Assembly: GCA_020741375.1 (NCBI GenBank)
Contig: DYZF01000225.1
Coordinates: 1-12,342 of the forward strand
From: Tessaracoccus flavescens
Lineage (GTDB): Bacteria > Actinomycetota > Actinomycetes > Propionibacteriales > Propionibacteriaceae
DNA: 12,342 nt
Direction of reading: 5' to 3'
Shown here: positions 1-12,342 of the stretch, one piece after another
How the letters are laid out: every line of letters starts with the position of its first letter
Numbering within the stretch: position 1 is the stretch's first letter
Position numbers and translations under genes: made by a program
Notes under the pieces: generated by a model
Told to the model about the DNA's origin: nothing
Database searches by the model: none
What the model saw: the letters and a program-made list of their open reading frames with translations, nothing else

Positions 1-851
1 TCGGGCTGAACTCCACGTCCTTCAATGGCGCCCGCCTCGTCGGTCCCGGTGCCGCGGGTCTGGCGATCGCGGCGTTCGGCGTCGGCCCCACGCTGCTGTT
101 CAACGCGCTGAGCTTCTTGGCGTTCATCGGCGCGATCATGGCGATGCGCGCCGACGAGTTGCACCCCGCCCCGCTGGCCAAGGCGAGGGGCGCTGCGCGG
201 GAGGGGCTGTCCTACCTGCGCCAACGCCCGGACATCATCGTCGTTCTCGTCATCGTCTTCATGCTCGGCACGTTCGGCATGAACTTCCAGATCTACAACG
301 CCACCATGGCGACGGAGGTCTTCGGGAAGGGCGCCACGGAGTACGGCATGCTCGGCACGATCATGGCCTTCGGCACGCTCGCCGGAGCACTCATGGCAGC
401 CCGCCGCGTGAAGCCCAGCTTCCGGACGCTGCTACTGGCGTTGGCCGGCTTCGCCGTCAGCACCGCCCTGCTCACCATCGCGCCGAACTACACCGTGTAT
501 TCGCTGCTGCTGATCCCCGCGGGGTTCTGCGCCCTCACCGTCATGACGACGGCGAACGCGTCCGTCCAACTCGCCACGGCCCCGGAGTTCCGTGGGCGCG
601 TCATGGCCATCTACGTGGCGATCTTCGTGGGCGGCACGCCGCTCGGCGCGCCCATCATCGGCTGGGTCGGGGAGATCCTAGGGCCCCGCGCGTCGGTCGC
701 GATCGGTGCAGTAGCCACAGGCCTCACCGTCATCGGCGTGCTCGCGTACCTGATGATCCACGACGGCCTCCGCCTCGCCGTCGAGCGCGGGCTGCCGCTG
801 CGGCTGCGCGTGCGGTGGGACCGTCAGCGGGCGTCGGAGGTTCCCGCCTAG
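1..851 (+). CDS. MFS transporter, MFS_3/EntS-like, 5'-truncated by window edge
   Basis: The reading frame is open from base 3 to the TAG at 849-851 and gives 282 visible residues, so the start lies upstream of the window. The first residues read NSTSFNGARLVGPGAAG, a signature of the MFS_3 family (transmembrane secretion effectors such as the enterobactin exporter EntS), where this helix lines the pore. Several hydrophobic segments follow (around IIVVLVIVFMLGTFGM, TLLLALAGFAVSTALLTIA, VAIFVGGTPLGAPIIGWVGE), consistent with roughly the last seven or eight of twelve membrane helices. The C-terminus is a short basic cytoplasmic tail. Members export siderophores, macrolides or other small hydrophobic compounds by proton antiport; the substrate here cannot be told. 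The neighbouring xylanase is convergent and separated by a strong terminator, so no functional link is implied. The family call is firm, the substrate unknown. Confidence 0.88.
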   Translation, partial: GLNSTSFNGARLVGPGAAGLAIAAFGVGPTLLFNALSFLAFIGAIMAMRADELHPAPLAKARGAAREGLSYLRQRPDIIVVLVIVFMLGTFGMNFQIYNATMATEVFGKGATEYGMLGTIMAFGTLAGALMAARRVKPSFRTLLLALAGFAVSTALLTIAPNYTVYSLLLIPAGFCALTVMTTANASVQLATAPEFRGRVMAIYVAIFVGGTPLGAPIIGWVGEILGPRASVAIGAVATGLTVIGVLAYLMIHDGLRLAVERGLPLRLRVRWDRQRASEVPA

Positions 852-865
852 GAGAGTGGCTCGAG

Positions 866-912
866 ACGACGCGTGGCCCGCACCCGGAGAAGGTGCGGGC
901 CACGTTCGTCGT
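866..912. terminator. Bidirectional intrinsic terminator between convergent MFS and xylanase genes
   Basis: A perfect 13-bp stem (872-884 CGTGGCCCGCACC with 892-904) closes a 7-base loop. It is extended by a further 6-bp outer stem (866-871 ACGACG with 907-912 CGTCGT), interrupted only by a two-base bulge TT at 905-906. The structure starts 15 bases after the transporter stop and ends 6 bases before the xylanase stop on the other strand. It can therefore end both convergent transcripts. There is no long T-run, as is common in high-GC actinobacteria. Confidence 0.85.
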
Positions 913-917
913 GAGGG

Positions 918-2528
918 TTACTTCAGCTTCAGCGATGCGATGGCGTCAGCCAGCGCCGCCTGGGCCGCGTTGACCTCGGCTTGGCCCTTGCTGGACTTGA
1001 TGACGGCGTTCGCCTTGCCCAGAGCGCTCTTGACGGCGCCGAGGCTCTTTCCGGTGTACACGTTGCCGCGCAGATCCAACGCCTTGGCCTCGGCCACCGT
1101 CGCCGCGAGGGCGGAGGTGTCGACGACCGGCTTCTTGAGCCCCAGCCATGCCTCGGGGTCAGCGACCGCCGGGGCCGACAGCTTCTCGGACCAATCCCGG
1201 TTGAAGAGCTGCGGGTTGTGCGTCGCACGCCAGTTCAGGTAGTCGTTCAGACCCCAGAACGTGACGCGATCCATGTCCTGCGAGTACTTCTTGTAGACGG
1301 CGAAGTACTCCGCGAAGCGCTGGGCCTGGATGGCTTCGAGTTCCGTGCGGCTCTCGATCTTGCCCACCCAATAGGTGAAGCCGTCCTTGTAGAAGCGGGC
1401 GGCGACGCTCTCGTCGTTCAGAACGGCGTAGTTCGCCTTGTCCGTGCCCTCGGGCTCCGCGTTCCAGGCCTCCCACACCTGCAGATCCAGTTCGCTCACG
1501 TTCGCGGTGAATCCGGCATCGATGATCAGTTGGAGCGAACGCTCGACGGAGGCGTCGTTCGAGCAGGCGCCCGGCTTCCATTCCTCGGCGTTGTCGTCGA
1601 CGAGCTCAGGCAGGAGCGTGAGATCCGAGCAGGCGAAGGCCGGCGTCTGGTTGATGTAGTTGTGCGACTGCAGGCCGATGGTTTCGATCAGCTGGCGCGG
1701 ATCGTCGGGGTATTGCGCTGCGTAGCGCTCGTTGAGTTCCGTCGCCATCGCGAGGATGGCCTTCGCCTTGCCCTCGGACTGGAAGACGTTGAAGTCGTTG
1801 TACTCCAACTTCGTCTCGGGCCCGTACTGGCGGGCGAAGACGAACGCATCGTAGATGAAGTCGCCCGGGCGCTCGCCGGCTTCGACGTCCATGTCGGTGG
1901 TATAGGCGTTGTACCAGCCCGAGTAGCTGTAATCGGTGGGATTGCCGCGGAGGAAGTCCTCCCAGTTCTGCGTCTCGGGATCGAAGGAGCCGATGCCGTC
2001 GACGAAGGCCTCATTGACGACGTCCCAGGAGACGACGCGACCCTTGAAGTGGGTGAGCACCTCCTTGATGTAGCGCTCCATGTTCGCCTTGGCGGCGTCG
2101 CGGCCGCCCTGGAAGATGCGAGCGGGGGACTGGCTGTGCCACACGAGGACGTGCCCATGGACGTCGATGCCACGCTCGAGGCTCTCGTCCACGAAATAGT
2201 CGGCCGGGGCGAAGTTGAACGTCCACTCGCCGGTGTCCGGGTTGATGTTCTGGTTGGGGAGCAACTGGTCCGGCTTCATGATGTTTTCGGCCGTCATGAC
2301 GTTGTAGTGACGCTCCACCTGTGCCCAGTTGGGGGAGACCTCTTCATAGGTTTGGGGTCCGGAGTAGATGTTGCCCACCTTGAAGTAGTCCGAATAGACA
2401 TCCTTCAGCGGGGGAATGAGTCCGTCGTCGGGCGCGCCGTGCGCTGGCATCGCGATTGTCGCCAGCGCCAAGGCGGCGCCGAGTCCGACGAGCTTGAGAA
2501 TTCGGGGCTTGCGGGGGTTGGTAGCCAC
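918..2528 (-). CDS. Secreted GH10 endo-1,4-beta-xylanase with C-terminal FIVAR module
   Basis: This 536-residue protein hydrolyses internal beta-1,4 bonds of xylan outside the cell. Residues 1-32 form a signal peptide: basic NPRKPRILK, then a hydrophobic core, then a likely cut near MPAHGA. The GH10 barrel spans about residues 35-460, with TAENIMKPDQ (79-88), HGHVLVWHSQSP (124-135), the acid/base Glu173 in WDVVNEAF, the nucleophile Glu346 in SELDLQ, and FWGLND (424-429). Residues 470-534 form a three-helix FIVAR-type module (ALAATVAEAKALDLRG ... NAAQAALADAIASL), usually found in cell-surface or extracellular glycan-active proteins. I chose the GTG at 2528 because AGAAAGGA lies six bases upstream and it gives a clean signal peptide; an in-frame start at 2666 would add 46 non-signal residues and overlaps the operator. 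The gene stands alone and is probably xylose-induced (see operator). Family call is very secure; the FIVAR role is inferred. Confidence 0.95.
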   Translation of the reverse strand: MATNPRKPRILKLVGLGAALALATIAMPAHGAPDDGLIPPLKDVYSDYFKVGNIYSGPQTYEEVSPNWAQVERHYNVMTAENIMKPDQLLPNQNINPDTGEWTFNFAPADYFVDESLERGIDVHGHVLVWHSQSPARIFQGGRDAAKANMERYIKEVLTHFKGRVVSWDVVNEAFVDGIGSFDPETQNWEDFLRGNPTDYSYSGWYNAYTTDMDVEAGERPGDFIYDAFVFARQYGPETKLEYNDFNVFQSEGKAKAILAMATELNERYAAQYPDDPRQLIETIGLQSHNYINQTPAFACSDLTLLPELVDDNAEEWKPGACSNDASVERSLQLIIDAGFTANVSELDLQVWEAWNAEPEGTDKANYAVLNDESVAARFYKDGFTYWVGKIESRTELEAIQAQRFAEYFAVYKKYSQDMDRVTFWGLNDYLNWRATHNPQLFNRDWSEKLSAPAVADPEAWLGLKKPVVDTSALAATVAEAKALDLRGNVYTGKSLGAVKSALGKANAVIKSSKGQAEVNAAQAALADAIASLKLK

Positions 2529-2591
2529 CGTGGGTCCTTTCTTCTGGAGCCTCCGGCGTCCGGCAGCGTCGATGCAGGTGCCGGATCCGTG

Positions 2592-2630
2592 CAGAGCGCG
2601 GGTGCGCTCTGGCAAGGCCTTCTTTGGCCT
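2592..2630 (-). promoter_or_regulatory. Structured 5' leader of the xylanase mRNA (two hairpins)
   Basis: The predicted xylanase transcript has about 140 untranslated bases. Within it lie a perfect 8-bp hairpin (CAGAGCGC at 2592-2599 with GCGCTCTG at 2604-2611, loop of four) and, further 5' on the transcript, a 5-bp hairpin (AGGCC at 2615-2619 with GGCCT at 2626-2630). Neither is followed by a T-run, so a terminator function is not supported. Stabilisation of the mRNA or modulation of translation is possible. The structure is seen; the function is unknown. Confidence 0.35.
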
Positions 2631-2645
2631 GAGGCGAGAGTGGAT

Positions 2646-2672
2646 ATTAATTTGGTTCAGCACCAAACTAAT
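2646..2672. promoter_or_regulatory. Palindromic operator, XylR (ROK family)-like
   Basis: Two 11-base arms, ATTAATTTGGT (2646-2656) and ACCAAACTAAT (2662-2672), surround a 5-base centre and match at 10 of 11 positions. Read on the xylanase strand the half-sites are TTAGTTTG and CAAATTAA, nine bases apart. That is the same half-sites and spacing as the xyl operator bound by the Bacillus ROK-family repressor XylR (TTAGTTTG and CAAACTAA, from memory). It covers the predicted xylanase start point (about 2670), so bound repressor would block initiation; xylose would be the expected inducer. No regulator gene is in the window. Confidence 0.72.
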
Positions 2673-2676
2673 GATG

Positions 2677-2706
2677 ACCCTAAGGTGAGCCCAGTGTCAG
2701 GGTCAA
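2677..2706 (-). promoter_or_regulatory. Xylanase promoter
   Basis: On the minus strand TTGACC (2701-2706) is followed by an 18-base spacer and TAGGGT (2677-2682), a reasonable SigA-type promoter for a high-GC actinobacterium. The start point would fall near 2670, inside the 27-bp palindrome, which is the usual geometry for simple repression. The box assignment is by eye. Confidence 0.55.
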
Positions 2707-2739
2707 GGGGTTTCGAAGAGTTTCCAAACGGAGGCAGGA

Positions 2740-2832
2740 TTGGGCGAGAACGGGGAGGCGACGCAACGGGCAGATCTGTGGCGGTGGAACAGCCGCCGCG
2801 CGGCGTGCGCCACGTGTAACCTGCCGCCGTGA
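2740..2832 (+). CDS. Candidate Trp-rich leader peptide upstream of trpB
   Basis: A 30-codon ORF starts with TTG at 2740, five bases after a strong Shine-Dalgarno GGAGG (2730-2734). Its codons 14-16 are Trp-Arg-Trp (TGG CGG TGG, 2779-2787), and its TGA stop at 2830-2832 overlaps the trpB GTG start as GTGA. trpB has no Shine-Dalgarno of its own, so coupling to this ORF would explain how trpB is translated. The Trp codons overlap GGCGG (2780-2784), which can pair either with CCGCC at 2793-2797 or with CCGCC at 2824-2828 next to the trpB start. A ribosome stalled for lack of Trp-tRNA would change that choice. Against it: the start is TTG, no clear promoter is visible, and G/C-rich DNA pairs easily by chance. 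The competing view is a leaderless trpB mRNA. Confidence 0.4.
2817..2822 (+). promoter_or_regulatory. Possible -10 box for a leaderless trpB transcript
   Basis: TAACCT lies exactly at -12 to -7 relative to the G of the trpB GTG, the geometry expected if transcription starts at the start codon. Leaderless genes are common in actinobacteria and this would also explain the missing Shine-Dalgarno. No convincing -35 box is seen. This conflicts with the leader-peptide reading of the same region; both could also operate from two promoters. Confidence 0.3.
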
Positions 2833-4019
2833 CCAACGATGGATTCTTCGGGCCCTATGGCGGCCGTTTCGTCCCCCCGCACCTCGAGGCTCCGCTCGCC
2901 GAGGTGGCAGAAGCCTACGAGGAGGCAAAGAACGACCCCGCGTTCATCGCCGAATACGAGGCGCTCCTCAGCGACTACGTCGGCCGACCCTCACCGCTGT
3001 TCAAGGCCGAGCGGCTCACCGAGGCGTTGGGTGGCGCCACCATCTACCTGAAGCGCGAAGACCTGAACCACACGGGCGCGCACAAGATCAACCACTGCTT
3101 GGGGGAGGCGCTGCTCGCCAAGCGGATGGGCAAGAAGAAGCTCCTCGCGGAGACCGGAGCGGGGCAGCACGGCGTCGCGCTCGCCACTGCCGCGGCTCTC
3201 GTGGGTCTCGAATGCGAGATCCACATGGGCGCCATCGACATCGCCAAGCAGCATCCCAACGTCGTGCGGATGAAGCTGCTCGGCGCGACGGTTGTGCCGG
3301 TGACCGACGGCGGCGCCTGCCTCAAGGACGCCGTCGATTCCGCCTTCGGTGTGTGGGCGGCCGACTACCACGACACCTTCTTCGCTATCGGATCCGTCGT
3401 GGGGCCGCACCCGTACCCGACGATGGTGCGCGATTTCCAGTCGGTGGTCGGCCGCGAGGCCCGCGCGCAGATCCTGGAGAAGGAGGGGCGCCTGCCCGAC
3501 GCGCTCGTCGCGTGCGTGGGTGGCGGCTCCAACGCGATGGGGCTGTTCAACGCCTTCCTCGACGACGCGGACGTCGCCATCTACGGGGTGGAGCCCGCCG
3601 GGCGCAGCCTCGAGGTCGTCGGTGAGCACGCGGCCACGATGACGCTGGGTTCCGACGGCATGCTCCACGGCATGAAGACCATCGTCCTGCAGGGCGCCGA
3701 CGGCGAACCCACGGCCGTGCACTCGATCGCATCCGGGCTCGACTACCCGGGCGTCGGCCCGCAGCACGCGTACCTCAAGGACACCGGTCGCGTCCAGTAC
3801 GTGCACGCCTCGGACACGGAGACGCTGGAGGCGTTCCAGTTGCTCTGCCGCACCGAGGGCATCATCCCCGCGCTCGAATCGAGCCACGCCTTGGCCCACG
3901 CCATGCGCATCGCCCCGGAGGTGGGCGGCGACAAGGTGATTGTGGTCAACCTGAGCGGTCGCGGCGACAAGGACATCGATTACGTCGACGAGCGCCTCGC
4001 GGAGCTGGGTAACAGCTGA
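2829..4019 (+). CDS. trpB: Tryptophan synthase beta chain
   Basis: TrpB condenses indole with L-serine to give L-tryptophan, using pyridoxal phosphate, normally as the beta subunit of the alpha2-beta2 complex in the cytoplasm. At 396 residues it has the standard length. Visible motifs are the PLP lysine Lys86 in HTGAHKINH, the catalytic Glu108 in [11 protein letters not shown], the phosphate-binding GGGSN (231-235), Asp305 in [12 protein letters not shown], Glu349 in [11 protein letters not shown], and LSGRGDKD (375-382). The GTG at 2829 is chosen because the family N-terminus ([11 protein letters not shown]) follows directly. No trpA, trpC or trpE is next to it, so it is either an orphan locus or a second, standalone TrpB; the sequence looks like ordinary TrpB1. 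It ends at a terminator facing the convergent icd gene. Regulation may involve the candidate Trp leader just upstream. Confidence 0.96.
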
Positions 4020-4025
4020 GCACCG

Positions 4026-4068
4026 CTGATTGAGTTGCCGGCGTCGCGTGCGCGGGGCGCTGAATCAG
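4026..4068. repeat. Imperfect inverted-repeat element between trpB and icd
   Basis: CTGATT (4026-4031) and AATCAG (4063-4068) are inverted copies around a very G/C-rich core, immediately 3' of trpB. It resembles the short dispersed palindromic intergenic elements of high-GC actinobacteria that begin GATTGAGT. This likeness is from memory; only one copy is visible here, so repeat status is unproven. Confidence 0.25.
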
Positions 4069-4076
4069 TAGAAACC

Positions 4077-4108
4077 AAGACGCCCACGGCCGAAACCGTG
4101 GGCGTCTT
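4077..4108. terminator. Bidirectional intrinsic terminator between trpB and icd
   Basis: A perfect 13-bp stem (AAGACGCCCACGG at 4077-4089 with 4096-4108) closes a 6-base loop CCGAAA. It lies 57 bases after the trpB stop and 16 bases beyond the icd stop on the other strand, so it can serve both convergent genes. Confidence 0.85.
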
Positions 4109-4124
4109 AGCGTCTAGCGATGGG

Positions 4125-6406
<2,282 letters not shown>

Positions 6407-6439
6407 CGGCGAACACCGACGTCCACCGGGCTTGCTCCT

Positions 6440-6468
6440 TTGGACTAAACCGGCTGATTGGGTAGCCT
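6440..6468 (+). promoter_or_regulatory. Promoter of the DUF3073 gene
   Basis: TTGGAC (6440-6445), a 17-base spacer and TAGCCT (6463-6468) form a good SigA-type promoter. The predicted start near 6475 leaves about 60 untranslated bases before the ATG at 6538, including AAGGGGG about ten bases ahead of the start codon. Confidence 0.6.
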
Positions 6469-6537
6469 GTACCCCACGAGTATCTGACAAATTCCGCGGC
6501 AAGGCCGCGAGGGACAAGGCAAGGGGGTCGACCCGAT

Positions 6538-6765
6538 ATGGGGCGCGGCCGTGCAAAGGCGAAGCAGACGAGGGTTGCCCGGGATCTGAAGTATCGCCCG
6601 GTTGACACTGATTTTGCGTCACTCGAGCGAGAGCTCCGTGGCGATAACTACGTCGACGATGTTGACATCACCGAAGAGGTGCCCGACGCCTACGCAGATC
6701 TTGCGGAGCAGTACGACGGATACGCCGACGAAGACGACGACTACGAAGAGCGTCGCTCCTCCTGA
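6538..6765 (+). CDS. DUF3073 family protein
   Basis: This 75-residue protein starts with the DUF3073 signature MGRGRAKAKQTRVARDLKYR: a basic, probably nucleic-acid-compatible N-terminus, then a conserved TDF..LERELRG segment, and a strongly acidic, Tyr- and Asp-rich tail (YADLAEQYDGYADEDDDYEE). The charge asymmetry, basic first third and acidic last third, is typical of the family. DUF3073 is widespread and largely confined to Actinomycetota; its function is not established. The ATG at 6538 follows an AAGGGGG ribosome-binding site and a good promoter. The next gene on the same strand overlaps or is tightly coupled to its 3' end, suggesting a two-gene operon. Family call is strong from the N-terminus. 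Confidence 0.88.
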   Translation: MGRGRAKAKQTRVARDLKYRPVDTDFASLERELRGDNYVDDVDITEEVPDAYADLAEQYDGYADEDDDYEERRSS

Positions 6766-7726
6766 TCCTCTGCCCTGGCAGCCGGATTCCGAGCTGCCGG
6801 GCTATCAGGCTGCCGTCCTGGAGTTGCCGGACGAACCCACTTATGCGCATGAGCCGGCCGGCTCGTTGGTCGCTACATTGGTGCGCCGCAATGAACCGAC
6901 GGCGTCGCTCGCGGTCCTCTACGTCCACGGGTGGAACGACTACTTCTTCCAGACGCACTTGGCCGATTCCATGGCCGAGTTGGGCTACGACTTCTACGCC
7001 GTCGATCTGCGCCGCTACGGGCGCTCGCTGCGGTCGAAGCAGTTGGCCGGCTACATCACCAAGCTCAGCGACTACTTCGTCGAGCTGGATCTGGCGCTGG
7101 CGGCCGTCAAGGCCGAGGGTCACGACGACGTCGTCCTCATGGGGCACTCCACGGGTGGTTTGACGGCGTGCCTGTTCGCGCATGAGCGGCCGGGCGAGCT
7201 CGCGGCGCTGGTGCTGAACTCTCCGTGGCTGGAGCTGCAGGGCAACGCGATCCTGCGACCAGTGACCCAGCCCATGATCACTGCCGCGCGCGCCGTCGCC
7301 CCGACGACGGCCCTTCCGCTCACAGAGAGCGGCTTCTACCGTCGCAGCACGCACCTCACCGAGGGTGGCGAGTGGTCCTACAACCTCAATCTCAAGGGCG
7401 ATCCGGCCTTCCTGATCCGCGTCGGCTGGTTCGCCGCGATCCTGGAGGGCCACGCCAAGGTGGCGGCCGGCCTCAGCATCGACTGCCCGATCCTCGTCGC
7501 CGTCAGCGAGCGCTCAGACTTCCGGCGCGTGTGGGACGACGCACTCTTGGCTGCCGACATCGTCCTCGACGTCGACCGCATCATGGAGCGCGGCTCAGAC
7601 CTCGGCAACCTAGTGGTGCTCGCCCGAATTCCCGACGCGCTGCACGATCTGGTGTTGTCGCGCCCCGCGGTGCGCGGCGTCGTCCTCGACGAGTACGCCC
7701 GCTTCCTGCGCTGCTACGCGCAGTAG
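6659..7726 (+). CDS. Alpha/beta hydrolase, lysophospholipase-like; start uncertain
   Basis: This serine hydrolase has the oxyanion-side HGWND, a VDLRRYGRS segment, and the nucleophile elbow GHSTGG (serine codon at 7148). A DALHDLVLS segment near the end supplies the likely catalytic histidine (codon at 7643). The fold resembles the Hydrolase_4/monoglyceride-lipase-like group; ester or acylglycerol substrates are plausible but unproven. No signal peptide is seen, so it is probably cytoplasmic. The real domain starts at about 6770 (PWQPDSELPGYQ). I give the ATG at 6659 as the boundary because it is the last ATG or GTG before the domain, but the 37 extra residues are a Thr/Pro-rich out-of-frame reading of the DUF3073 acidic tail. 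TTG 6602, GTG 6638 and TTG 6701 have the same problem. A CTG at 6770, four bases after the DUF3073 stop, is a coupled alternative. Family call secure, N-terminus not. Confidence 0.85.
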   Translation: MLTSPKRCPTPTQILRSSTTDTPTKTTTTKSVAPPDPLPWQPDSELPGYQAAVLELPDEPTYAHEPAGSLVATLVRRNEPTASLAVLYVHGWNDYFFQTHLADSMAELGYDFYAVDLRRYGRSLRSKQLAGYITKLSDYFVELDLALAAVKAEGHDDVVLMGHSTGGLTACLFAHERPGELAALVLNSPWLELQGNAILRPVTQPMITAARAVAPTTALPLTESGFYRRSTHLTEGGEWSYNLNLKGDPAFLIRVGWFAAILEGHAKVAAGLSIDCPILVAVSERSDFRRVWDDALLAADIVLDVDRIMERGSDLGNLVVLARIPDALHDLVLSRPAVRGVVLDEYARFLRCYAQ

Positions 7727-7745
7727 CCGGCGAATAGGGCCGCAT

Positions 7746-7775
7746 TTGTGGTCTGGGGGATCGTGCCCCTAGACT
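7746..7775 (+). promoter_or_regulatory. tRNA-Glu promoter
   Basis: TTGTGG (7746-7751), an 18-base spacer and TAGACT (7770-7775) lie just ahead of the tRNA-Glu gene at 7787. A bulged inverted repeat (GTCTGGGG with CCCCTAGAC) overlaps the promoter and may also end the hydrolase transcript. Confidence 0.5.
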
Positions 7776-7786
7776 TACCCGAGCTA

Positions 7787-7859
7787 GTCCCCATCGTCTA
7801 GCGGCCTAGGACCCCGCCCTTTCACGGCGGTAGCACGGGTTCGAATCCCGTTGGGGATG
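7787..7859 (+). tRNA. tRNA-Glu (anticodon UUC)
   Basis: A full 73-base cloverleaf is visible: acceptor GTCCCCA pairs with TGGGGAT (with a G1-U72 wobble), the anticodon stem is CCGCC/GGCGG with loop CTTTCAC (anticodon TTC at 7821-7823), and the T arm is ACGGG TTCGAAT CCCGT. The discriminator base is G and CCA is not encoded. It is the first of three clustered tRNAs. Confidence 0.96.
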
Positions 7860-7862
7860 CTC

Positions 7863-7886
7863 TTGCCCCAGTTTCGGCTGGGGCAA
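7863..7886 (+). terminator. Hairpin after tRNA-Glu
   Basis: A perfect 9-bp stem (TTGCCCCAG at 7863-7871 with CTGGGGCAA at 7878-7886) closes the loop TTTCGG directly after tRNA-Glu. There is no T-run, but its position and strength suggest a terminator or processing boundary, and a separate promoter precedes tRNA-Asp. Confidence 0.6.
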
Positions 7887-7917
7887 AACCGGTAGCGACA
7901 GCGCTGAAAACGCCGAT

Positions 7918-7947
7918 GTGACATCGGAACAAAGTGCACGCTATAGT
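7918..7947 (+). promoter_or_regulatory. Promoter of tRNA-Asp/tRNA-Phe
   Basis: GTGACA (7918-7923), an 18-base spacer and TATAGT (7942-7947), close to the SigA consensus, stand 34 bases before tRNA-Asp. With the hairpin at 7863-7886 this suggests that tRNA-Asp and tRNA-Phe form their own transcription unit. Confidence 0.65.
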
Positions 7948-7981
7948 TACCGGGCTGGCTCAGCCAGCAGGTCAAGAAATT

Positions 7982-8055
7982 GGCCCCGTAGCGCAGTTGG
8001 TTAGCGCGCCGCCCTGTCACGGCGGAGGTCGCGGGTTCGAGTCCCGTCGGGGTCG
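7982..8055 (+). tRNA. tRNA-Asp (anticodon GUC)
   Basis: The 74-base cloverleaf has acceptor GGCCCCG with CGGGGTC, anticodon stem CCGCC/GGCGG with loop CTGTCAC (anticodon GTC at 8016-8018), and T arm GCGGG TTCGAGT CCCGT, its first T-stem pair being G-U. The discriminator is G and CCA is not encoded. Confidence 0.96.
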
Positions 8056-8083
8056 CTAGGTCAGCGGAAACGCTAGGCCAGAT

Positions 8084-8160
8084 GGCCAGGTAGCTCAGTT
8101 GGTAGCAGCGTTCGCCTGAAAAGTGAAAGGTCGCCGGTTCGATCCCGGCCCTGGCCACCA
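8084..8160 (+). tRNA. tRNA-Phe (anticodon GAA), CCA encoded
   Basis: The 77-base gene includes the terminal CCA. Acceptor GGCCAGG pairs with CCTGGCC; the anticodon stem TTCGC/GTGAA has one G-U pair around the loop CTGAAAA (anticodon GAA); the T arm is GCCGG TTCGATC CCGGC. The D stem GCTC/CAGC carries a C-C mismatch at its inner pair (13-22), which is slightly unusual. It ends the tRNA cluster and is followed within three bases by a strong terminator. Confidence 0.95.
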
Positions 8161-8162
8161 GT

Positions 8163-8184
8163 ACCCCGCGAGAGCGGGGTTTTT
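8163..8184 (+). terminator. Intrinsic terminator of the tRNA cluster
   Basis: A perfect 7-bp stem (ACCCCGC at 8163-8169 with GCGGGGT at 8174-8180), a GAGA tetraloop and a run of five T (8180-8184) make a textbook Rho-independent terminator just after tRNA-Phe. Confidence 0.92.
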
Positions 8185-8216
8185 GCGTTCCAGGGCCGGG
8201 GTCTTCCCCCGTGCTC

Positions 8217-9842
8217 CTAGGCGACGACGTCGCTCACCGTCAGGCTGCCGTCGCTACGAGTCAGATCCCAGCGTCGAGTCACCCGCAGCTCGTTGGCCAG
8301 GTGATCGTCGTGGGTGACGACGATCAACGCCCCGCGGTAATCCTCCAACGCGTCCACGAGCTGATCAACGGAGGCCAGATCGAGGTTGTTGGTGGGCTCG
8401 TCGAGAACCAACAGCTGCGGCGCCGGCTCCGCGAAGAGAGTCTGCGCCAACCCGAGCCGGAACCGCTCGCCGCCCGACAGCGTCGCCGGGCTCTGGTACG
8501 CCTTGTCGCCGCGGATCAGGAAGCGGGCGAGCAGTGCCCGAGCGTCGTGGGGGAGCCTGCTGGGCGCCGTCTGTCGCACCGCGTCGATCGCCGTCGGAAA
8601 GGCCGTCAGGTGATCGAGCCGCTGCGAGACGACCCCCGTGGGCACCGTCGGCGCGAGCGTCAGTTCGAGGTCGCCCAGAACGTCCGGCCACCACGGCTCG
8701 GCCGGGCGGCCCAGCAGCAGCGACAGCAGCGTGGATTTGCCGGTGCCGTTGTCGCCGGTGATGCGGATCCGCTCCGGCCCGACGATCCGCAGCGGGCGAT
8801 CGCCTGTCGAGAGGGTGGCGATGTTCTTGCCGGAACCCACCGTCGTGTCGGGCAACTCGATGCGGATGGTGTCGGCGGTGCGCGCCGCGGCGTCCGCCGT
8901 CGTCCGCGCCTCCGTCGCCTGCTCCACTGCCTCCTGATGGGCCATGGACTTGGCCCCGGCCTTCTTCTCCGAACGGTTCTGAAGGTAGTCGGCGCCCGCC
9001 TTCCCGACGTTGCCCAGCGCTCTTTCCTTGGCGCCCACGCGGTCGCGCTGCGCCCGGCGCTGGAGTTCCACCTGCAGCGCCTGCTTCGCCCGGGAAAGCT
9101 CAGCGTCCGCCTCGCGCAGCCGTCGCTCCGCCGCCGCCTGGGTGGTGGCTTGGGCCTCGCGGTACTCGCTGAGCGTGCCGCCGAAGCTGACGACGCCTCG
9201 CGGGTCCAGATCCACGAGCGAATCGACGCGCTCCAACAAGGCTCTGTCGTGCGAGACGACGATGACGGCGCCCTGCCACCGATTGAGGGCGGCCGCCAGC
9301 CACGATCGTGCCGAGGTGTCCAGATTGTTCGTGGGCTCGTCGAGCAGGGTGACGTCGGCGTGGGCGAGGCGCGCGCCGATGAGGGCAACCTTGGTGGCCT
9401 CCCCACCCGAGAGGCCGCTGGCGGGGCGGTCCAGGATGTCTGGAGAGTCCGGAAGGCCGAGCGCTGAAAGCTCGGCCACAGCCAAGGCCTCGATGTCCCA
9501 GTCGTCTCCAATGACGTCGTAGTGCGCCTGATCCGTGGCCCCAGCCTCGACGGCACGGAGGGCCTGTCGGATGGGGGTGATCCCGAGCAGGTCCGCGACC
9601 GTCCCGGCCGCCGACGGGTTCTGGGGGACGAGGTGGACACGACCGGTGGCGCGGACGGTGCCCGCCGTCGGAGTGAGTCGACCGGCGATGAGGCGCAGCA
9701 AGGTGGTCTTGCCGGCGCCGTTGGGGCCGATCAGGCCGGTGATTCCCGAGGGGAACGTGGCGCTGACGCCGTCGAGAATGACGGTGCCGTCAGCGAGATG
9801 GAAAGAAAGGCCGTCGACGACGACGGCAGGGGAGTGAGCCAT
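8217..9842 (-). CDS. ABC-F family ATPase (ribosome-associated, two NBDs)
   Basis: This 541-residue protein has two fused nucleotide-binding domains and no membrane segments, the ABC-F layout. NBD1 has Walker [10 protein letters not shown] (39-47), signature LSGGE (144-148), Walker [11 protein letters not shown] (166-175) and SHD (197-199). NBD2 has GDNGTGKST (363-371), LSGGERFR (455-462), [11 protein letters not shown] (478-488) and THDD (510-513). Between them, about residues 225-325 form a charged, Ala/Arg/Glu-rich coiled-coil linker with basic [14 protein letters not shown], the part that reaches into the ribosomal E site in this family. ABC-F proteins act on ribosomes as translation factors or as antibiotic-resistance proteins that dislodge macrolides, lincosamides or pleuromutilins; which applies here cannot be told from motifs. 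The ATG at 9842 has AGGA six bases upstream. The leader with a three-codon ORF and hairpin suggests drug- or stall-responsive control. Confidence 0.94.
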
Positions 9843-9880
9843 GAGGTGTCCTGAGGGGTCGCTGGGGTGCTTCGTCGGAA

Positions 9881-9897
9881 GGCACGCCGTGCGTGCC
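9881..9897 (-). promoter_or_regulatory. Leader hairpin between the three-codon uORF and the ABC-F gene
   Basis: GGCACGC (9881-9887) and GCGTGCC (9891-9897) form a perfect 7-bp stem with a 3-base loop, three bases after the uORF stop. On the minus strand the 3' arm CGTGCCT can instead pair with AGGCCACG at 9913-9920, the uORF start region, with one bulge. The two pairings exclude each other, so ribosome occupancy of the uORF could decide between them. No T-run follows. Confidence 0.5.
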
Positions 9898-9900
9898 GGC

Positions 9901-9912
9901 TCAGTTCTCCAT
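9901..9912 (-). CDS. Three-codon upstream ORF (Met-Glu-Asn) in the ABC-F leader
   Basis: The minus strand reads ATG GAG AAC TGA, preceded by a perfect Shine-Dalgarno AGGAGG (9918-9923) with an ideal 5-base spacing. That is a far better ribosome-binding site than that of the downstream ABC-F gene. A very short ORF with so strong a site, a hairpin directly behind it and an ABC-F gene about 60 bases downstream matches the plan of ribosome-mediated attenuators upstream of ABC-F resistance genes in Firmicutes. The elements are seen; translation of the ORF is inferred. Confidence 0.55.
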
Positions 9913-9937
9913 CGTGGCCTCCTGCTCGGGGATTCTC

Positions 9938-9943
9938 AGACTA
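9938..9943 (-). promoter_or_regulatory. Possible -10 box of the ABC-F transcript
   Basis: TAGTCT on the minus strand would start transcription near 9931, eight bases before the uORF Shine-Dalgarno. The matching -35 region (TTCCGG at 9961-9966) is weak. Confidence 0.35.
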
Positions 9944-9971
9944 GCGCCCTCACCCAGCGTCCGGAAACGCG

Positions 9972-10007
9972 CGAAGGGGCCCGGCTCCCCAATGCCGGAC
10001 CCCTTCG
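9972..10007 (-). terminator. Intrinsic terminator of the SH3/M15-like gene
   Basis: A 14-bp stem with one C-A mismatch on the plus-strand reading (9972-9985 with 9994-10007) and an 8-base loop lies 19 bases downstream of the SH3-protein stop on the minus strand. It separates that gene from the ABC-F promoter region. Confidence 0.8.
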
Positions 10008-10026
10008 AGCTTGTTGTGCGTGCGGT

Positions 10027-11400
10027 TTACCCGTAGGTGTTGATGTGCACGTGGTTGTAGTGGTTGGCGTTGTCGCTGCCGCGATCAGACATCCAGCGCC
10101 AGCCCTCGCTGTTGCGCTGCACCGACCAGATCTTCTGGGCGAAGATGATGTAGTTGATGTTGTACTTGCTCGCGTTGGCGCGGTAGTAGTTCGCGATCTC
10201 CCAGCCGAGCGCCTGGTTGGAGCTGTAGCTCGGGATCATCACGTCGACGGCGCGGCCAGCCGGGTGGTCCGGGGTGACGTCGCGGCGCCAGCCGTACATC
10301 GTGGTGATCGCCGGGTACCGGTCCCACACGTCGCGGACGATGGCCTGCACGTTGGCGTTGGTCAGGTCGAGACCGCTGGAGTAGCCACGGTTGAGCGTGG
10401 TGGACGAGCCGCTGGAGGCGGTGGAGTCGGTGGGCTTGGTGGCCGAGACGTATTTGGCAGTCACCCAGCGGATGGCGCCGTTGTGCACGATTTGAGCGCG
10501 ACCGTTCTCCACCTTGCCGGTCACGTTGAGCTCAGAGCCGCGCGGGAACTCGCCGCTGTAGCGGGTGCCGGTGCTGGCGGCCCAGTTGTTGAGCAGCGTG
10601 GTGGCGTAGCGGACGGTGGTGGACGGCAGGGCGGTCGTCGGTGCCGGGGCGGGAGCTGAGGCGGTGGCGTCGACGGCGACCAGGTACTTGGCGTTGACCC
10701 AGCGGAGGCGACCCTGCCAGATGACCTGAGACATGCCGTTCTCAAGCTTTCCGGTCACGTCGAAGATGGTGCCGCGCGGGGCATCGCCCAAGTTGACGAA
10801 GCTCGAGGTGGAGGTGGTGCGGATCATGAGCGCGGTGGTGCCGCGCATCTTGCCGACGGGGGTCGGGAGCTCATGGTAGGCCGCGGCCGCCGTCGTGCTC
10901 AGGTAACGGGTGGAGGCCCAGTAGGTGCCGCCGTTGACCGTCACCTGGGCGAACTCGCCGCTGACCTCGCCGGTGAGGACGACGGCCGTGCCGCGCTGGG
11001 CGACGAAGGCGGAACGGTGGCTCGTGCTGGGGCCGGTGCGCATGTTGAGGTTCGCCGTCGTGTAGACGGTGCCCGTGCTGCCACCGGAGCTCGACTTCAC
11101 CTCGGCCGAGGAGCCCGCGAGGTACGCCGAGGCGACGTAGGCGGTCTTGCCGTTGTAGGTGACGGTGGTCCAGCCGTTCTTGGAGCCATGCGCCGGCAGC
11201 GTGTGGCCCTTGTAGATGACGGCCAGGCTCTGGCTCTGCGTGGTCGGGGAAGTGCGGACGTGCACGGCCGTGGTGGCGGTGACGTTGCCGTCGGTGGCGT
11301 CGGCCAATGGGCCCAACGTCAGGGCGCCGACGCCCTGAACCAGGACGGCAATTCCGGCCGCGGCTGCTGCGCCACGTACTGCCTTGAGTGCTTTCTTCAC
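10027..11400 (-). CDS. Secreted protein with four SH3-like repeats and M15-like peptidase domain
   Basis: This is probably an exported cell-wall-binding hydrolase. Counting from the GTG at 11400 (457 residues), residues 1-35 form a signal peptide (VKKALKAVRG, then AAAAAGIAVLVQGVGALTLG). Four bacterial SH3-like units follow at about 41-94, 112-168, 184-241 and 262-319. The first two keep the VRTSP and MRTGPS motifs; the last two are degenerate and resemble each other (VTGKLENG and VTGKVENG, each ending RWV.AKY). A Pro/Ala linker sits before the fourth. The C-terminal 115 residues match the ARB-07466/VldE-like, M15-type zinc peptidase fold: HPAGRAVD (379-386) and HVH (450-452) supply the metal ligands. 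Cleavage of peptidoglycan peptides is inferred. I prefer this GTG because AGGAG lies four bases upstream; the ATG at 11412, adding four residues, lacks a Shine-Dalgarno. Confidence 0.88.
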   Translation of the reverse strand: MKKALKAVRGAAAAAGIAVLVQGVGALTLGPLADATDGNVTATTAVHVRTSPTTQSQSLAVIYKGHTLPAHGSKNGWTTVTYNGKTAYVASAYLAGSSAEVKSSSGGSTGTVYTTANLNMRTGPSTSHRSAFVAQRGTAVVLTGEVSGEFAQVTVNGGTYWASTRYLSTTAAAAYHELPTPVGKMRGTTALMIRTTSTSSFVNLGDAPRGTIFDVTGKLENGMSQVIWQGRLRWVNAKYLVAVDATASAPAPAPTTALPSTTVRYATTLLNNWAASTGTRYSGEFPRGSELNVTGKVENGRAQIVHNGAIRWVTAKYVSATKPTDSTASSGSSTTLNRGYSSGLDLTNANVQAIVRDVWDRYPAITTMYGWRRDVTPDHPAGRAVDVMIPSYSSNQALGWEIANYYRANASKYNINYIIFAQKIWSVQRNSEGWRWMSDRGSDNANHYNHVHINTYG

Positions 11401-11429
11401 GTCTCTCCTCATCGCTGCGGATTAGGGGA

Positions 11430-11473
11430 CGGACGTATCGCTTCCCCGAAGCCCATGGCTTCCGACACGTCCG
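11430..11473 (-). promoter_or_regulatory. Nested hairpin in the 5' leader of the SH3/M15-like gene
   Basis: A 7-bp outer helix (11430-11436 with 11467-11473) encloses a 6-bp hairpin (GAAGCC at 11448-11453 with GGCTTC at 11457-11462). It ends about 20 bases before the Shine-Dalgarno. It does not match the c-di-AMP (ydaO) riboswitch consensus that often precedes such wall-hydrolase genes. The function is unknown. Confidence 0.35.
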
Positions 11474-11486
11474 GCCGCTGCGACGG

Positions 11487-11516
11487 ACACTAAGAGCCGC
11501 TATTCGGCGTAGCCAA
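11487..11516 (-). promoter_or_regulatory. Promoter of the SH3/M15-like gene
   Basis: TTGGCT (11511-11516), an 18-base spacer and TAGTGT (11487-11492) on the minus strand predict a start near 11480 and an 80-base leader containing the nested hairpin. Confidence 0.5.
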
Positions 11517-11735
11517 GCCCGAATTGAGAGTTTGCTGAGGTTTTGCAAGCAGCCGCGCCGATAATCGGCGGAAAACTACATCGGTGTGATTTTTCGCTCG
11601 TTTGACGCGTAATGCACATCTGGCTAGGGGTTTTGCTTAATCTGGGCATTGAGAGGTCAGACGTCTCCGCATCCTGAAAAGCTGTGAAAGCTCTCAGAAT
11701 CAACCGAGCTGAAGGGCAGCTTGAGGTTCAGGTCC
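11517..11735. other. Non-coding, lower-GC intergenic stretch
   Basis: This part of the 335-base gap between the GroEL-like gene and the SH3/M15-like gene is about 49% GC (11521-11700, counted by eye), clearly below the flanking genes. It holds a 15-base palindrome, CGCCGAT-A-ATCGGCG (11556-11570), placed about 75 bases upstream of the predicted SH3-gene start, a plausible operator. Just 3' of the GroEL-like stop there is a weak hairpin (AGCTG/CAGCT around 11707-11721) that might be its terminator. A 67-codon minus ORF at 11500-11703 looks spurious. Confidence 0.45.
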
Positions 11736-12342
11736 CTACTTGAGGGTTTTGTCAGGGGTGAGTGCTACCCACGTCGATCTGCCGGTGCTCGACCACTGCG
11801 AGGCTCGGCCCATGCCGGAGCTGGGGAGGTAGCCGGCCTTCAGATCAGCCTCGGTGACGGGGGTGGCGCCGGTGAGTTCGGCGAGCCTGATCCGGTCTCG
11901 CTGGGGCGCCTGCGCCGCGAGGACCGGGGTGTTGAGGGCTCGACGGTTGGCCGCCAAGGTGGTGAGGACGTCGTCGGAGAAGTTGTCCGCGACCACGACG
12001 AGCGGGGCGTCGGCGGTGGCGCGGCTGAGCGGAGCGAGCAGTTCGCGCATGGTGTCGACGGCGCCGTCGACGATGAGGAGCGTCGGGCTGGTGAGCACCG
12101 CGCCGGAGGGGTTGGTGGCGAAATCTGGGTGGGCGTGGCCGAAGCCGAAGCCTTCGCCGTCGTGGCGAAGATTGCGCGGTTGCCCGACGGCGGGGTGGGT
12201 GAGCGCGTCCACTTCATCCTGGGTGATGTAGCTGGGTACGTGGCGGTCGACGGCGGGGAGTCCGCGGGCCGGGGCGGGTTGGTCTGTGCCGACTTCTCGA
12301 CGGCGTTCCCGCCGGTCGGCGAGCACGGCGACCGCGAGCAGC
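11736..12342 (-). CDS. GroEL apical-domain-like protein with N-terminal membrane-anchor-like segment, partial
   Basis: The frame is open to the window edge, so the start is missing; 201 residues are visible. They begin [15 protein letters not shown], which looks like the end of a hydrophobic helix followed by a positive stop-transfer cluster. A linker follows, then about 130 residues that align by eye with the GroEL apical domain (E. coli about 191-375): [17 protein letters not shown] for [25 protein letters not shown] for [28 protein letters not shown] for [36 protein letters not shown] for IATLTGGTVISEEIGME, and [16 protein letters not shown] for LGQAKRVVINKDTTTI. The stop comes right there, so the C-terminal intermediate and equatorial (ATPase) parts are absent, and no remnant follows in 11400-11735. 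It cannot be a working chaperonin by itself; binding of extended or misfolded polypeptides at the membrane is an inference. The GTG at 12326 is unlikely to be the true start. Confidence 0.7.
   Translation of the reverse strand, partial: [201 protein letters not shown]

Follow-up and report, generated by a model that had tools for sequence, protein, structure and literature searches.

Isolation of the GroEL apical domain in the laboratory asked how much of the work of GroEL needs the ring and ATP. The resulting minichaperones comprise GroEL(191-345), GroEL(191-376) and, from T. thermophilus, GrAD (190-333), as outlined in PMC9138447 and PMC4973282. No description of a natural stand-alone apical domain was found in the titles and abstract openings of the open-licence papers listed by literature searches. 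Here such a gene is described from Tessaracoccus flavescens (Propionibacteriaceae). It lies at 11736..12341 on the minus strand of contig DYZF01000225.1 (assembly GCA_020741375.1), positions 1 to 12,342 of which are the 12,342-nucleotide stretch analysed, referred to below as the window. The gene is predicted to encode a small, membrane-anchored, apical-domain-only protein and, judged from its relatives, looks like an old, maintained gene. Its identity, anatomy, fold, conservation, distribution, separateness from GroEL and changed contact residues were obtained by computation.

The open frame has 201 visible codons and a stop. The window end (12342) is also the contig end, and the first 16 residues of the protein lie beyond it. 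A complete database counterpart, P0001 (217 amino acids, from a 1249-base contig), spans all 201 window residues, is identical to them except at P0001 residue 160 (L for Q), and supplies the 16 N-terminal residues, MPAWSWFVVAVVIGGA. The complete protein is predicted to consist of a hydrophobic N-terminal helix, the basic run DRRERRR, a linker of ∼45 residues and a single folded domain. An earlier note, made from the letters of the window, had placed a single anchor before the basic run; the anchor stands, with the whole helix present in P0001, but only its last ∼7 residues are inside the window (12321..12341, minus strand, P0001 residues 17-23, by hydropathy). In the predicted structure of P0001 the N-terminal helix comprises residues 4-34. 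The basic run, a putative cytosolic-side signal, is encoded at 12297..12317 (minus strand, residues 25-31). It is followed by the linker, which was delimited from alignments at 12162..12296 (minus strand, residues 32-76) and modelled with lower confidence (block means 71-95). The linker carries PxY(I/V)TQDE(V/I)DA (12204-12236, minus strand, residues 52-62), which is well conserved among close relatives, is partly modelled as a short helix (residues 57-62) and may be a docking motif.

Conservation was assessed on an alignment of 54 members, composed of 30 of 69 database proteins and 24 proteins from loci, the start positions of the latter being assigned by hand. The apical-domain core is encoded at 11754..12161 (minus strand) and comprises P0001 residues 77-212, equivalent to GroEL 191-336. 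The predicted fold is that of the GroEL apical domain, with model residues 77-212 superposing on 1dk7 191-336, and the core is homologous to the group I chaperonin GroEL/Cpn60 by profile (E 1e-20); structure prediction confirmed the apical fold claimed in the earlier note. By model secondary structure, the counterparts of GroEL helices H and I are at 12024..12050 (minus strand, residues 114-122) and 11934..11975 (minus strand, residues 139-152, with TLAANRRA); in the former, GroEL positions 231, 234 and 237 are retained in most members. All aligned members (193-249 amino acids) consist of a transmembrane helix, linker and apical core. The equatorial ATP-binding and intermediate domains are absent, and the equatorial ring contacts are lost together with the equatorial domain. 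An equatorial domain upstream of the window is contradicted by the complete relatives, which begin with the transmembrane helix; this is judged from relatives, the window gene being cut by the contig end. The chain does stop before the intermediate and equatorial domains, as had been noticed, but it ends at GroEL ∼336 rather than at the domain border (∼376), so that, like the laboratory minichaperones, it also lacks the final ∼40 residues of the apical domain as usually defined. The region read as QRDR in place of GDRR does differ from GroEL but is better called a deletion, with GroEL 284-288 gapped in 54/54 members. Conservation reaches 90% or more at D182, L183, G186 and P189, and G194 is invariant; the stretch DLxAGYxP is conserved and differs from GroEL.

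A hydrophobic 19-residue stretch was located by hydropathy in every member, starting at residue 1-7. No K or R precedes it in 53/54 members (one or more in the remaining member), and the 20 residues after it hold 2-7, more than before it in 54/54. Because K and R follow the helix and do not precede it, the positive-inside rule would place this domain in the cytosol, and we infer a single-pass N-out/C-in topology. The same charges do not support the suggestion that the protein is an envelope factor. A secreted or lipoprotein domain was rejected on the same counts. A second stretch past residue 60 meets the same hydropathy threshold in 9/54 members.

The family is separate from GroEL. None of the 54 members matched any Pfam family, PF00118 included (E 0.01), and the NCBIfam GroEL models scored below cut-off (TIGR02348, 25.9 bits vs 582.1; the best, NF009487, 32.4 vs 352). 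In the source genome of the window, three further contigs gave chaperonin matches. Each of 11 related genomes examined has a pair of full-length groELs, and nine of the 11, G013 and G081 being the exceptions, also carry the apical gene. A tree of the apical region was built from 22 of the 54 members and 32 GroELs, from genomes of the class of the window and without the E. coli row, L056, L057 and L058. A single branch divides the two sets with a Shimodaira-Hasegawa-like approximate likelihood ratio (SH-aLRT) support of 99.8; long branches inside the apical family make its inner order uncertain. Across 15 sequences, codon positions 1, 2 and 3 differ by 0.297, 0.243 and 0.502, which is the pattern predicted for a constrained protein.

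Profile searches of Propionibacteriaceae returned a match reaching the N-terminal part in at least 143/194 genomes. Presence was counted when the match began at profile position 36 or lower, and the counts are lower bounds. The gene is in at least 24 of 29 genera, in 35/35 genomes of the genus of the window and in at least 107 of 134 genomes that are ≥95% complete; this breadth agrees with the earlier view that the gene has diverged and is not a recent broken copy. Of the database relatives, 67/69 are 207-224 amino acids long, and in 20/24 loci the apical gene is followed, in the same orientation, by a wall-hydrolase-like gene. Named relatives come from Tessaracoccus massiliensis, T. bendigoensis, Arachnia and Naumannella (all Propionibacteriaceae). 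Among the matches listed, eight have database names reading 'hypothetical'. One member, P0073 (Naumannella cuiyingiana), is named 'TCP-1/cpn60 chaperonin family protein' at NCBI, so the chaperonin likeness is detectable by annotation software.

Among the matches listed, the gene is in 1/9 genomes of genus g14, 0/4 g23 genomes and 0/4 g28 genomes. The g14 carrier has it at G053:C1:2137235-2137840, with a hydrolase match ∼0.8 kb or less away. In seven genomes scored as gene-negative the corresponding slots were inspected; six had no family match below E 0.1. The seventh, L175:3207-3410 (G093), holds a 68-residue frame weakly like the family (E 8e-6) and possibly a remnant. A second, more divergent apical-only gene was seen at G129:C93:102-761, in a genome already having one, and may represent either a paralogue or contamination from binning.

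No apical-only form outside Propionibacteriaceae was present among the matches listed for samples of 196 genomes from the order, 345 from the class and 110 from the phylum, which include some Propionibacteriaceae genomes. The outside matches listed were mostly in frames of ≥500 codons, with shorter ones of ∼250-480 codons in the class and phylum samples. Six short-frame matches were checked (G645:C8 and G670:C13, both at contig ends; G704:C1; G704:C4; G650:C1; and G650:C2, with two stops), and in all of them GroEL sequence, in cut or interrupted frames, continues well past the apical domain. G665:C1 was taken as chance, matching the transmembrane part only (E 1.4e-4) with no GroEL there, as was G717:C93 from its score only (E 8.9e-4). 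A wider protein profile search, of the best 7996 candidates by shared words, returned the apical family and one 383-residue PF00118 protein, P0077.

In early mutagenesis of GroEL, acidic changes at client-contact positions reportedly abolished binding. Client-binding positions are given as 199, 201, 203, 204, 234, 237, 259 and 263 in PMC3268035, and client-contact positions as 203, 264, 265, 267, 268 and 270 in PMC10723157. In P0001, H85, D89 and R150 correspond to GroEL 199, 203 and 267. Across the 54 members the client-binding surface remains hydrophobic in most at 204 (F in 49) and at 234, 237 and 259 (mostly L, M, I or V), and is altered in most at 199 (H in 32, L in 11), 203 (D in 35, E in 6), 263 (A in 26, R in 8) and 264 (A in 46). 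Position 265 is N in 53 members, 267 mostly R (35) or K (five), and 268 A in 36. In the 30 closer members the 13 groove positions have a mean entropy of 0.70 vs 1.29 at the other 99, as low as in 1.2% of random draws, and the conserved groove positions carry the new, non-GroEL residues. From these alignments the groove, at any rate in the genus and its near kin, seems to be constrained for something other than the usual GroEL clients.

The explanation we favour, at a rough probability of 0.45 and hence slightly short of even, is that the protein is an adaptor, tethered to the membrane, whose retuned groove binds peptide and captures a particular partner segment. The protein would be a single-pass inner-membrane protein with a GroEL-type apical domain as its sole folded domain, held at the cytosolic face by the N-out/C-in helix and the ∼45-residue linker. 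Because the equatorial and intermediate domains are missing, the GroEL ATP cycle would be impossible, and from the lack of an ATPase domain we infer independence from ATP. Less certainly, the groove between helices H and I would still bind peptide, through a conserved new contact set. By capturing such a segment, and not just any unfolded chain, it would serve as adaptor or receptor for a protein that is bound to the membrane or inserting into it, and clustering in the membrane would replace the avidity normally given by the GroEL ring. A specific adaptor is preferred over a general holdase because the groove seems constrained, at least close to the genus, yet with residues changed from those of GroEL.

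Several points weigh against this explanation. The partner is hypothetical. Over all 54 members groove entropy is not significantly low (1.60 vs 1.85, 17% of draws), so the groove may drift in distant genera, and the random draws ignore relatedness and burial. Among the matches listed, 51/194 family genomes have no qualifying match, 27 of them ≥95% complete, and the gene is therefore dispensable to many. The topology is predicted from charges. The two predicted folds are not independent, because their alignments are partly common to both.

A natural minichaperone, that is a general ATP-independent membrane holdase binding unfolded or nascent chains via the apical groove, is rather unlikely. 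The domain boundaries are near those of the active laboratory fragments 191-345 and 190-333 described in PMC9138447 (1jon, 1dk7), and aggregation is suppressed by the isolated apical domain without a ring according to PMC4973282. The four positions that stay hydrophobic in most members leave some substance to the holdase proposed in the earlier note, but the GroEL client-contact residues have mostly been replaced (D or E at 203 in 41/54; H at 199 in 32; A at 264 in 46; R or K at 267 in 40; A at 268 in 36), and these conserved substitutions suit a specific ligand better. A fuller version, in which a Propionibacteriaceae minichaperone would catch emerging membrane or secretory chains, clustered for avidity and perhaps handing them to the two cytosolic GroELs, is doubtful.

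We hold it equally doubtful that the protein is a plain structural or signalling module, in which a fixed protein or small-molecule partner would bind another conserved face, for example DLxAGYxP, with the groove disused. Conservation of D182, L183, G186, P189 and G194, alongside the non-significant groove entropy over 54 members, is consistent with this. However, the groove positions of the 30 closer members are better conserved than the rest, and 265 is N and 204 is F in nearly all members, though either residue could be structural.

Far less probable than the module is a partnership with the adjacent wall hydrolase, whose precursor the apical protein might, for instance, hold before export. 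The neighbour, at 10027..11412 (minus strand), encodes a secreted, SH3-repeat, wall-hydrolase-like protein of 461 residues (PF08239, E 1.1e-28). The apical gene had been correctly placed upstream on the same strand, but the gap from its stop is 323 bases (11413-11735), not 335; in seven close loci (L005-L008, L039, L041 and L042) the distance from the apical stop to the aligned hydrolase start is 322-358 bases. The downstream, same-strand position in 20 of the 24 loci favours a partnership. On the other hand, the hydrolase is on the other strand in two loci and not found nearby in two, the gap holds a hairpin leader that stays with the hydrolase, and all four g23 genomes in which no apical gene was found match the hydrolase strongly (best E 3e-49 to 3e-80). 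An operon is not supported, as the hydrolase is preceded by a leader of its own and is present in genomes where no apical gene was found; the gene pair is therefore a stable address and not evidence of shared function. The hydrolase is probably not part of the apical system.

The conserved hairpin leader, at 11420..11526 (minus strand) and not part of the apical gene, was predicted with RNAalifold from six sequences, with two-sided changes in 9/19 predicted pairs. Its covariance model also matches L040, L041, L042, L043, L048 and L052 at E <0.001, loci outside the build set included. In most loci 6-30 bases lie between the end of the leader and the hydrolase match; the distance is 10-30 bases in L040, L041, L042, L043 and L048 and 148 in L052. 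In L043 the leader and hydrolase, 16 bases apart, share one strand and the apical gene is on the other. The hairpin is possibly an undescribed cis-regulatory RNA of the wall hydrolase. A riboswitch in the 323-base gap was rejected, as Rfam gave no match there, whether at the gathering score or with E relaxed to 10. No sigma-70-type promoters or terminators were found in 11380-11800, which is about chance expectation. Downstream of the apical stop codon and ahead of the leader, AACCTCAA-type motifs were seen in the window (∼11735-11690, minus strand), L005-L008 and L039, repeated in several relatives. A tRNA-Lys is within 200 bases upstream of the apical gene in 10/24 loci, divergent in nine of the ten. 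The genes for tRNA-Glu, tRNA-Asp and tRNA-Phe are at 7787-8160 of the window, and all three are near the apical gene in 15/24 loci.

A degenerating copy of full-length groEL or a contig-end artefact, to which the truncation of the window copy might point, is scarcely credible and was rejected for the family, being already contradicted by complete relatives of equal length, the 24 genera, third codon positions that differ most and the deep split from the GroELs.

The protein is homologous to GroEL/Cpn60 (PF00118, TIGR02348) across the apical core; unlike them it has no equatorial or intermediate domain and no ATP site, and it comprises 193-249 amino acids vs ∼540. Mycobacterial second chaperonins of the GroEL1/Cpn60.1 type are full-length, whereas the apical protein coexists with two full-length GroELs in the nine carriers examined. 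Single-pass, cytosol-facing membrane chaperones and adaptors likewise have a binding domain tethered by one helix; none is known to us that uses a chaperonin apical domain, although no systematic search was made for one. With the laboratory minichaperones the protein shares its fold, similar boundaries and the lack of an ATPase domain. It differs from them in being a natural gene, with a predicted membrane anchor and linker and with conserved changes at client contacts. The family suggests a possible function to seek behind database 'hypothetical' proteins, and with an assay-ready domain of ∼136 residues it offers a natural experiment on stand-alone apical domain activity. Evolution seems to have come close to repeating the laboratory cut, adding a membrane anchor, rewriting the contacts and keeping the product in most genera of the family.
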